Assembly: GCA_003599485.1 (NCBI GenBank)
Contig: QZKM01000035.1
Coordinates: 1-33,833, forward strand
Source: Gammaproteobacteria bacterium
GTDB lineage: Bacteria > Pseudomonadota > Gammaproteobacteria > SURF-13
Reading direction: 5' to 3'
Length of the DNA stretch: 33,833 nucleotides
The notes under the pieces are model-generated. The model worked only from the letters and a program-made list of their open reading frames with translations, ran no database searches and had not been told where the DNA came from. The translations under genes were made by a program, and so were the position numbers. Of this stretch, positions 24,514 through 30,873 are shown in pieces. Position 1 is the stretch's first letter. Each line of letters opens with the position of its first letter.

Positions 24514-26061
24514 CTATATCGGCTGCCCCGCCTGCGGATGGGCGCGCTCCGTGGGCAGCAGGATTTTATTCAGCGCGTTGATATAGGCCTTGGCCGAGGC
24601 GATCACGATGTCGGTATCCGCGCCCTGTCCGTTCACCACGCGCCCGCCTTTCTCCAGACGCACCGTCACCTCGCCCTGCGAATCGGTGCCGGAGGTGATG
24701 TTGTTCACCGAGTACAACAGCAACTGGGCGCCGCTGTTAATCATGCGCTCGATGGCCTTGAACGACGCATCCACCGGGCCGCCGCCGCTGGCATTGGCGC
24801 GTTGCTCCGCGCCGTCCACCCATAACGTCACTTCGGCCTGCGGCGTCTCGCCGGTCTCGGAACACACCCTGAGATACACCAGCTTGATGCGCTCGTTCTC
24901 CGCCGCCAGATTGGTTTCCGTCACCAATGCCTGCAAGTCCTCGTCGTAGATTTCGTGCTTCTTGTCGGCGAGTTCCTTGAAACGCTGGAAGGTGTCATTC
25001 AACTCTTCCTCCGAGTCAAACGCCACGCCCAGTTCCTGCAAGCGGGTGCGGAAGGCGTTGCGTCCGGAGTGCTTGCCGAGCACCATGCGGTTGGCGCTCC
25101 AGCCCACGTCCTCGGCGCGCATGATTTCGTAAGTCGTGCGATGCTTGAGCACGCCGTCCTGGTGGATGCCGGACTCGTGCGCGAAGGCGTTGGCCCCCAC
25201 GATGGCCTTGTTGGGCTGCACCGCGAAGCCGGTGATGCCGGATACCAGGCGTGAACTCGGCACGATTTGCGTGGTGTCCAAGCCGGTGTCGCAGATGAAC
25301 AGATCGCGCCGCGTGCGCACCGCCATCACGATCTCCTCCAGCGCCGCGTTGCCCGCGCGCTCGCCCAGGCCGTTGATGGTGCACTCCACCTGACGCGCGC
25401 CGTTCAACACCGCGGACAGCGAGTTGGCCACCGCAAGCCCCAGATCATTGTGGCAATGCACGGAAAACACCGCCTGGTCCGAATTGGGCACGCGTTCGCG
25501 CAAGGTCTTGATGAGCGCGCCGAACTGATGCGGCAGGTTGTAGCCCACCGTGTCCGGGATATTCACCGTGCGCGCCCCGGCGGCAATCACCGCCTCCAGC
25601 ACCCTGCACAAAAAGTCTATCTCGGAACGCCCGGCGTCCTCCGGGGAAAACTCCACGTCATCGGTGTGCTGACGCGCACGCTTGACCGCGCTCACCGCGT
25701 GCTCGATGACCTGCTCCGGCGTCATCTTGAGCTTCATCTGCATGTGCACCGGCGAGGTGGCGATGAAGGTATGGATGCGCGCGCGCCGCGCGCCCTTGAC
25801 CGCCTCGGCGGCGGCGTCTATATCCCTGGGCAAGGCGCGCGCCAGGGCGCACACCGTGCTGTCCTTCACCGCGTTGGCTACCGCCTGCACCGCCTCGAAA
25901 TCGCCCGGGCTCGCCACCGGAAAACCGGCCTCGATCACGTCCACGCGCATACGCTCCAGCGCCCTGGCGATGCGCAGCTTTTCCTCGCGCGTCATGGACG
26001 CGCCGGGGCTCTGCTCGCCGTCGCGCAATGTCGTGTCAAAAATGATTAACTTGTCGTTCAT
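24514..26061 (-). CDS. leuA: 2-isopropylmalate synthase
   Basis: LeuA condenses acetyl-CoA with 2-ketoisovalerate, the first committed step of leucine synthesis, and is inhibited by leucine. It has 515 residues. The TIM barrel begins [18 protein letters not shown] and contains [14 protein letters not shown] and [17 protein letters not shown], with metal-binding HSGRNA-type residues. The C-terminal LeuA regulatory domain (about 390-505) is present. Its TTTAGGAC/GGAG region upstream is a modest ribosome-binding site. Unlike the ilv genes it has its own promoter and a leucine-rich leader ORF (26181-26282). Confidence 0.97.
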
Positions 26062-26147
26062 GTCCTAAACTCCACGCCGTCACACACGGCAACGCCTCGT
26101 GGCTGCGCCGCGTTCACTCTGATTTCGGGTTCATGCGTGTTTATGTT

Positions 26148-26238
26148 CCCCTCGCCAGGGGTGGAAGTGTGATCTGCCCGTCAGGGCAGCAGCCGCAGGG
26201 AGCGAAGCAGAAGCGAGGCGCGCAAGCCAGCCTGCCCG
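26148..26238 (-). promoter_or_regulatory. putative leuA attenuator hairpins
   Basis: On the minus strand three short segments can pair alternately. Segment 1 is GGGCAG at about 26232-26237, inside the leader ORF. Segment 2 is CTGCCC at 26184-26189, the last codons. Segment 3 is GGGCAG at 26174-26179, just after the stop. Pairing 1-2 and pairing 2-3 exclude each other, and the 2-3 hairpin carries the TGA in its loop. A further perfect 5-bp hairpin CCCCT-GGCG-AGGGG follows at 26148-26161, but no T-tract follows it. The remaining leader down to the leuA ATG also has GCCGT/ACGGC. Attenuation without a canonical terminator is the weak point. Confidence 0.5.
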
Positions 26239-26282
26239 GAAAGGGCGGATGCGGTGCGAGAAGTGTGGCTTGCGTTTTTCAT
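26181..26282 (-). CDS. leucine-rich leader peptide upstream of leuA
   Basis: The ORF has 33 codons plus TGA (ATG at 26280-26282, TGA at 26181-26183). The last 14 residues are LRASLLLRSLRLLP with seven leucines: codons TTG CGC GCC TCG CTT CTG CTT, then CGC TCC CTG CGG CTG CTG CCC. A run of regulatory-amino-acid codons ahead of a biosynthetic gene is the hallmark of ribosome-mediated attenuation. No ribosome-binding site is visible, and the predicted transcription start lies only 0-3 bases before the ATG, so initiation may be leaderless. It is too short for a normal ORF screen. Confidence 0.65.
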   Translation of the reverse strand: MKNASHTSRTASALSGQAGLRASLLLRSLRLLP

Positions 26283-26291
26283 ATGGATAAC

Positions 26292-26320
26292 ACTATAAGG
26301 TTTACGCAGGCAGTTTTCAA
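26292..26320 (-). promoter_or_regulatory. predicted sigma70 promoter of leuA
   Basis: TTGAAA (26315-26320), a 17-base spacer and TATAGT (26292-26297) lie on the minus strand. This is the best promoter-like sequence in the window by eye. The -35 lies 8 bases after the pssA stop codon, so leuA is uncoupled from the ilv-pssA transcript. The expected start falls at about 26284-26285, right at the leader ATG. Confidence 0.7.
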
Positions 26321-26327
26321 GTACTGC

Positions 26328-27128
26328 CTATTTGAGCGTATCGCGCAGCCTTTCCTGCTCCTTTTTTTTCGCCTGTTGCTTCTTGCAGAACCACAACACC
26401 GCCATGCCCGGCCCGGACACGGCGTAGAGAAAAAATACCGCGAACAACACCTGCGGCGGGGCGATGGCGATGAGCACGAAAATCAGCATCACAGCCAGCA
26501 CGGTGACGAAGCGCACTTCGCCCTTCAGGTTCAGATCCTTGAAGCTGTAATAACGGATGTTGCTGACCATGAGGGCGCTCACCGCCAGCGTGATGATGAA
26601 GGCGGGGAACTTGGTAAGCGAGGCCGTCAAGCTGAGATCGTGCCCCAGCCACACCATGCCGGCAATCACCGCGGCGGCGGCGGGGCTGGCAAGGCCTTTG
26701 AAGTAGCGCTTGTCGGCGCTCCCCTGCTGGGTGTTGAAGCGCGCCAGGCGCAAGGCCGCACACGCCGCGTACACAAAGGCGACGAGCCAGCCGACCTTGC
26801 CCAGTTGCGACAAGCTCCAACTGTAGATCACCAGCGCCGGGGCCAGCCCGAACGACACCATGTCGGACAGGCTGTCGTATTCCTTGCCGAAGTCGCTTTC
26901 GGTGCGGGTCAGGCGCGCGATGCGCCCATCTATGCCGTCCATCAGCATGGCGACGAAAACGGCGACGGCCGCCGCCTCGAAGCGCCCCTGCATCCCGGCC
27001 ACAATGGCGTAAAACCCGGCAAACAGCCCCGCCGTGGTGAACAGGTTGGGCAGCAGGTAAATACCGCGCCGCCGTTTGGCGGTGCGCGCGCCCTGCTCCG
27101 CTGCAGACTGATCGTCGGCTAAGGACAT
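26328..27128 (-). CDS. pssA: CDP-diacylglycerol-serine O-phosphatidyltransferase
   Basis: PssA makes phosphatidylserine, the precursor of phosphatidylethanolamine, at the inner membrane. It has 266 residues. The CDP-alcohol phosphotransferase signature is complete: DGIDGRIARLTRTESDFGKEYDSLSD (pattern DGxxAR-x8-G-x3-D-x3-D, about 64-89). Seven or so membrane spans are visible, and the C-terminus is basic (CKKQQAKKKEQERLRDTLK). It follows ilvC by 20 bases. This is the integral-membrane, subclass II enzyme and not the E. coli peripheral type. Confidence 0.95.
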   Translation of the reverse strand: MSLADDQSAAEQGARTAKRRRGIYLLPNLFTTAGLFAGFYAIVAGMQGRFEAAAVAVFVAMLMDGIDGRIARLTRTESDFGKEYDSLSDMVSFGLAPALVIYSWSLSQLGKVGWLVAFVYAACAALRLARFNTQQGSADKRYFKGLASPAAAAVIAGMVWLGHDLSLTASLTKFPAFIITLAVSALMVSNIRYYSFKDLNLKGEVRFVTVLAVMLIFVLIAIAPPQVLFAVFFLYAVSGPGMAVLWFCKKQQAKKKEQERLRDTLK

Positions 27129-30429: not shown

Positions 30430-30449
30430 TCCAAGATGGAAAACTAATA

Positions 30450-30478
30450 AGCATAAACGATACGCGCAGGAACTGCAA
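30450..30478 (-). promoter_or_regulatory. predicted promoter of ilvBHC-pssA
   Basis: TTGCAG (30473-30478), 17 bases and TATGCT (30450-30455) lie on the minus strand; transcription would start near 30443. The short 5' UTR leaves no room for a leader peptide, in contrast with leuA. Just upstream is a perfect 12-bp palindrome CTGTTTAAACAG (30483-30494), between this promoter and the divergent tautomerase gene, a candidate operator. Confidence 0.55.
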
Positions 30479-30528
30479 AAGACTGTTTAAACAGGTAAAA
30501 TTTGCGGGAATAGCCCCAAGGAGACCCC

Positions 30529-30873
30529 ATGCCCTACCTCAAGCTGCAAACCAACACCGACGTGAACCCCGCACAGACCGGCGCCCTGCTCAAAAAGCTC
30601 TCAAAAACCGTGGCTCAGCACCTGGGCAAACCGGAAAGCTACGTCATGGTGGCGCTGGAGCCGCCGGCTCCGATGCTGTTCGCCGGCACGGACGCCCCCC
30701 TTGCCTATCTGGAACTGAAAAGCATCGGCCTACCGCAAAACAAAACCACCGCGCTCTCCAAAACGCTATGCGATTTGATGCATCAGGAACTGGGAATCAG
30801 CCAGGAGCGCGTATATATTGAATTCAGCAACGCCACCGGCCCGATGTGGGGCTGGAACGGAGAGACGTTTTAG
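30529..30873 (+). CDS. MIF-like phenylpyruvate tautomerase family protein
   Basis: This encodes 114 residues with the length and pattern of macrophage migration inhibitory factor homologues: MPYLKLQTN (Pro2 becomes the catalytic base), ESYVMVALEPPAPMLFAGTDAPLAYLELKSIG and the C-terminal RVYIEFSNATGPMWGWNGETF. The family has keto-enol tautomerase activity; the bacterial role is uncertain. AAGGAG lies 6-7 bases before the ATG. It diverges from ilvB and converges with recR. Confidence 0.9.
   Translation: MPYLKLQTNTDVNPAQTGALLKKLSKTVAQHLGKPESYVMVALEPPAPMLFAGTDAPLAYLELKSIGLPQNKTTALSKTLCDLMHQELGISQERVYIEFSNATGPMWGWNGETF

Follow-up and report, generated by a model that had tools for sequence, protein, structure and literature searches.

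The actinobacterial LEU element is, judging from published descriptions, the closest known system to the one described here. It lies before leuA and comprises a leader peptide with a run of Leu codons, the run pairing with the leuA Shine-Dalgarno (SD) sequence in a base stem that encloses a pseudoknot (Seliverstov et al. 2005, PMC1262725). The leuA leader of Streptomyces lividans is leaderless and has no typical terminator (PMC8079986). In Shewanella, a terminator/antiterminator attenuator has been described for leuA (PMC2659441), and in Campylobacter jejuni termination has been proposed to occur just past the stop codon of the leader LeuL (PMC3847290).

The gammaproteobacterial locus analysed here shares with the LEU element a Leu-run leader before leuA and complementarity of the run to the leuA SD; its predicted near-leaderless mRNA and the lack of a typical terminator recall the S. 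lividans leader. It differs in belonging to another phylum and in its scaffold: whereas the base stem of the LEU element encloses a pseudoknot, here we found a hairpin inside the ORF (H0), a second one right after the Leu run, often with the stop codon (H1), and a third, CCTGGCGAGG (H2). The LEU leaders quoted are 15–16 residues long, with LLLL and a short tail, whereas those found here mostly have about 27–50 residues. The attenuator of enterics and Shewanella (Rfam Leu_leader; PMC2659441) also has a Leu-rich leader peptide before leuA, but operates through an antiterminator and a terminator, in contrast to the absent terminator signal, absent Rfam match and SD-less start of the present leader. 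LeuL, from C. jejuni and other Epsilonproteobacteria, is likewise a short ORF with C-terminal Leu codons, located before leuABCD, and leaderless mRNAs are known in C. jejuni; by contrast, transcription termination is proposed for it, and the leaders of other species were predicted from a ribosome-binding site (PMC3847290). A literature search retrieved no description of a leaderless gammaproteobacterial leuA leader; the 2004 proteobacterial attenuator survey by Vitreschak was not covered, and an earlier mention is possible.

A leucine leader ORF between pssA and leuA

The window, that is, the whole stretch of 33,833 nucleotides that was analysed, carries the genes ilvB-ilvH-ilvC-pssA-leuA in this order on the minus strand (Table 1). 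A first-pass annotation of the same DNA had claimed a 33-codon ORF before leuA with seven Leu codons in its last 14, and this was confirmed at 26181-26282 (minus strand). The ORF encodes MKNASHTSRTASALSGQAGLRASLLLRSLRLLP, and its stop codon is followed after 119 nt by the start of leuA, with GGAG preceding it. The promoter reported just before the leader ATG was also found (P1, TTGAAA-N17-TATAGT, 26320-26292). P1 is the single sigma-70-like site in the scanned interval 25800-26700, where shuffled sequences gave 0.1. The -10 box of P1 lies 9 bases from the leader ATG; with a start 6–8 nt past the box, this gap predicts a 5' UTR of about 0–3 nt. An SD is absent before the leader ATG because there is no room for it.

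On the opposite strand, a 329-codon open frame (26133-27122, plus) spans pssA as well as the leader and resembles an antisense artefact arising from GC-rich coding DNA. Ahead of ilvB, with which the neighbouring ilvBHC cluster begins, inspection by eye (30430-30850, minus strand) revealed no comparable leader peptide.

Table 1. Features of the leuA leader region (positions in the window)
Feature	Position	Strand	Remarks
Leader promoter P1, -35 box TTGAAA	26315..26320	-	just past pssA stop codon
-10 box TATAGT of P1	26292..26297	-	predicted transcription start about 26286-26283
Leucine leader peptide ORF	26181..26282	-	33 codons; without SD; predicted 0-3 nt 5' UTR
H0, hairpin within early leader ORF	26221..26274	-	CGCAAGCCA/TGGCTTGCG
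Leu-codon run (L20, L24-26, L29, L31-32)	26187..26225	-	proposed sensor and anti-SD segment
5' part of Leu run and flank	26212..26228	-	predicted pairing with leuA SD region 26083-26068; duplex -18.5 kcal/mol
H1, CTGCCC-TGAC-GGGCAG	26174..26189	-	6 bp; from last Leu codon; leader stop in loop
H2, CCCCTGGCGAGGGG hairpin	26148..26161	-	R3 x R3t cis/trans z -6.7 (positive control)
leuA SD, GGAG	26070..26073	-	
leuA, 2-isopropylmalate synthase (regulated gene)	24514..26061	-	LeuA: NF002087 919 bits, TIGR00973 744 bits

The leader is widely conserved in Gammaproteobacteria

The leuA upstream regions of 152 gammaproteobacterial genomes, for the most part sampled evenly over the class, were searched for leaders on four criteria: a promoter, an ATG 3–45 nt past its -10 box, the length of the ORF and its share of Leu; the hairpins were not used. 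Leaders were recovered in 95 of the 152 regions, as against 1, 2, 2, 2 and 1 in five dinucleotide-shuffled sets. Conservation on this scale rules out a chance ORF, and the comparison with relatives that the first-pass annotation had proposed as a check revealed a conserved run of Leu codons. The leader is absent or undetected in roughly one genome out of three.

The distance from the -10 box to the ATG is 6–12 nt in 59 of the 95 leaders, mostly 6–8 nt, which places the AUG at about +1. The distribution is bimodal, with a sharp peak at 6–8 nt and a broad group at 20–42 nt. Of 86 leaders, 46 have their in-frame ATG 6–10 nt past the -10 box, whereas the first out-of-frame ATG falls there in 1 of 172 frames. 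A -35 box of the TTGGCA/TTGAAA type with a 17-nt spacer is recurrent among the relatives. Leaders with a longer 5' UTR are likewise without an SD: their anti-SD energy averages -0.7 kcal/mol, whereas leuA has -5.8 and control windows have -1.3. The absence of an SD is therefore a family trait, not peculiar to the window sequence. The almost leaderless, SD-less mRNA that had been suggested for this locus is thereby supported, at the level of sequence, by spacing (9 nt in the window, 6–8 nt at the class-wide peak), by the missing SD and by conservation throughout the class, the transcription start itself being predicted.

An exact 23-base pattern from the end of the leader, CTGCGACTGCTGCCNTANGGCAG, gave 11 matches in a genome collection of 85k species, and all 11 precede a leuA motif, by 130–252 nt. 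An Rfam scan, amino-acid leaders included, returned no family match, either at this part of the window or among 20 relatives. As a short ORF before leuA that is conserved in relatives and whose cognate codons cluster towards its end, the window leader has the hallmarks of a leucine leader peptide, and comparison of sequences confirms it as a member of a large conserved family unlisted in Rfam.

A bias was also seen in the Arg codons of these leaders. CGA, which is a slowly decoded codon, accounts for 44 of 97 Arg codons within the Leu runs versus 7 of 110 in the preceding part of the ORFs (p 4e-11), and usually stands 1–3 codons before H1 (for example, in L004, L005 and L009). The window has CGG at the corresponding codon (26195-26193).

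Hairpins around the leader stop codon

Co-evolution between segments was assessed by a cis/trans test, in which duplex energies of same-species segments were compared with those of cross-species segments after removal of row and column means. In this test, H1 (R15 x R23, z -5.5) and H2 (R3 x R3t) were taken as positive controls. H1 covaries, a feature that the first-pass annotation had proposed to look for in relatives. H0 recurs in several relatives with differing sequence (R0a x R0b, z -3.6). When 62 leaders aligned with MAFFT were folded by RNAalifold, zero consensus pairs were obtained; H1 was misaligned by MAFFT because its stem lengths and loops differ. A covariance model built from the same alignment was sequence-only and was discarded.

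H1 adjoins the Leu run without a gap. Its sequence varies while pairing is kept, as in the stems CTGCC/GGCAG, CCGC/GCGG, CGCC/GGCG and CCCC/GGGG, the listed stems of relatives having been selected as perfect matches. Fold energy lends H1 independent support: around the stop codon of leaders that had been chosen without regard to hairpins, it reached a mean z of -1.56, compared with -0.52 in control windows. The earlier claim that the leader stop lies in a hairpin loop is correct for the window, where CTGCCCTGACGGGCAG (26189-26174) holds TGA. In relatives the stop codon lies either inside the H1 loop or just past H1, so that the position of H1 is tied to the Leu codons and not to the stop.

In many leaders H2 has the sequence CCTGGCGAGG and then a tail close to AAACGCA; this form is seen at 26161-26148 of the window and in 49 of the 152 upstream regions. 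Among 83 leaders, 41 have CTGGCGAG as H2, and others use other stems. This near-fixed sequence in and beside H2 suggests a bound factor or a tertiary contact; no partner for it was found.

The Leu run is complementary to the leuA SD

Applied to the Leu run and the leuA SD region, the cis/trans test gave greater complementarity in cis than in trans (z -5.3). In finer windows the signal peaked at -20 to -4 relative to the leuA ATG (z -5.5), the leader side spanning about -40 to +5 of H1. Some degree of pairing with any SD is expected of a CT-rich run, and the trans mean is already strong. After correction for composition interaction, the SD window retained a z of -4.4, the start-codon window -3.0 and overlapping windows -2.0 to -2.4, whereas windows further upstream, H1, H2 and upstream leader segments were unremarkable. 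Pairing of the Leu run with the 3' arm of H1, with H2 or with the H2 tail was not found in the cis/trans test.

Ensemble folds of 75 leaders agreed in placing the Leu run on the SD: SD:Leu-run pairing was 0.33 per nt, 2.2 times the share expected from length, versus 0.36–0.46 times for all other regions. Examples are L053 (GAGCAGCCA with UGGCUGCUC), L072 (AUUUAGGAGAA with UUCUCCUAAAU) and L139 (GGGAGCAGUGA with UCACUGCUCUC, one G-U). When a stalled ribosome was simulated by barring the Leu run from pairing, the cost of opening the SD fell by 1.9 kcal/mol on average, compared with 0.26, 0.07 and -0.15 kcal/mol for equal-sized control blocks (p 8e-6 to 3e-4). Shuffling the order of synonymous codons over the final 12 positions had on average no effect on SD pairing (z 0.0 +/- 0.12). 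This is a negative result for selection on codon order, from a test of low power since most of the Leu codons are CTG.

The complementarity that characterizes the LEU element was thus found class-wide and is weak in the RNA ensemble of the window. There, the Leu run is predicted to pair mostly with a segment located about 33–47 nt ahead of the leuA ATG; its pairing with the SD is 0.08, whereas four other members of the window's family reach 0.77–0.84. The simulated ribosome effect in the window RNA was 3.1 kcal/mol, with an early-leader control block already at 2.3. Given this competing helix and the high control block, the proposed mechanism rests on the class and not on the window sequence alone.

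Discussion

Across the class, sequence analysis shows conservation of the promoter, the leaderless spacing, the SD-less start, the Leu run, H1, H2 and the complementarity between Leu run and SD. Our preferred reading, to which we assign a probability of roughly 0.6, is that on a nearly leaderless leader mRNA the Leu run sequesters the leuA SD and a stalled ribosome relieves this lock. The mRNA from P1 would start at the leader AUG or within about 3 nt of it, and ribosomes would initiate on the 5' end itself, without an SD. The Leu-codon run would serve both as sensor and as anti-SD for leuA. With Leu-tRNA charged, the ribosome would pass the run and leave the mRNA at the leader stop; H1 and H2 would form, and the run would close on the SD/start region and hold leuA translation at a low level. 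Under leucine shortage it would stall on the Leu codons and cover the anti-SD segment, so that leuA would be translated. From these data we infer the direction of control, the translation of the leader and an action on leuA translation rather than on mRNA stability or through Rho alone. In ermC-type translational attenuation, too, ribosome stalling within a leader peptide uncovers an SD further downstream; there, in contrast, the signal is an antibiotic and the SD is freed by alternative hairpins, not by covering of the anti-SD itself.

In a different course of events, for which tna of E. coli is the comparison case, Rho would terminate transcription in the naked RNA that separates the leader stop from leuA, and the stalled leader ribosome would alter its access. 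We consider this unlikely. The spacer from H1 to leuA is indeed long and variable in most species, and terminator hairpins with a T-tract are not enriched, but a Rho mechanism does not predict the co-evolution of Leu run and leuA SD, and H1 and H2 occupy the expected position of a rut site. Rho-dependent attenuation has likewise been proposed for actinobacterial cys leaders (PMC1262725). Classical attenuation of the enteric leu type, in which an upstream GGGCAG:CTGCCC pairing would compete with CTGCCC:GGGCAG and an intrinsic terminator, appears more doubtful still. GGGCAG is repeated in the window and its family, and the upstream pairing of the two mutually exclusive hairpins proposed in the first-pass annotation is possible in that family; class-wide, however, the upstream leader and the 5' arm of H1 have no cis excess (R0b x R15, z -0.8). 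As a general switch, hairpins built on the upstream GGGCAG are not supported; the conserved long-range partner of the Leu run is the leuA SD, and H1 is a separate hairpin adjoining the Leu codons. Terminator-like hairpins occur in single relatives, but between H1 and leuA they are not enriched (10 found versus 7.4 expected, 66 sequences), no intrinsic terminator was detected on the leuA strand in the window, and no Rfam leader family matches. The T-tract was rightly described as missing past the last hairpin.

Arrest of the nascent peptide, or its slow release, at an LLP-stop ending in the manner of tnaC would act independently of Leu-tRNA shortage. LLP-stop is a common leader ending, and the Leu run has a strong excess of the Arg codon CGA; many relatives, however, end in LPR*, LPSGR*, LPLRG*, LLR* or LRLP* with the same hairpin, so that no peptide C-terminus is fixed, and it is the Leu codons that are the constant feature. 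This explanation is accordingly very improbable. Least credible of all is that the ORF has no regulatory role and is a chance frame behind a conserved promoter and 5' UTR: this is opposed by the 95 leaders recovered where 1–2 are expected and by the locking of ATG spacing to frame. Taken together, the SD pairing, the ribosome simulation and the background level of terminators favour control of leuA translation by sensing codons that act as anti-SD. That control may act on leuA translation had been guessed in the initial description, and the complementarity of Leu run and SD supports this.

More tentatively, and with less than even confidence, the locus may represent a minimal ribosome switch widespread in Gammaproteobacteria, in which the sensing codons are themselves the anti-SD and the stalled ribosome displaces the lock without an antiterminator. 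Because such a leader lacks an SD and begins with the mRNA itself, the sensor would act only on transcripts initiated at P1 and would be bypassed by read-through from the upstream ilvBHC-pssA genes.

If sequestration of the SD by the Leu run is true, a large share of Gammaproteobacteria would have a leaderless, translational control of leucine synthesis, in contrast to the enteric transcription attenuator that is the textbook leu leader of this class. Such leaders would also offer a natural system in which leaderless initiation is coupled to tRNA sensing. The likeness to Actinobacteria suggests that the logic of the LEU element either arose twice or is ancient.

Finally, -10 boxes resembling TAnnnT are about 2.6-fold enriched at -40 to -21 of the leuA ATG in relatives (24 and 22 versus 8.8 expected). 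These boxes, about 20–40 nt before the leuA ATG, suggest a second, leader-free leuA promoter in relatives.
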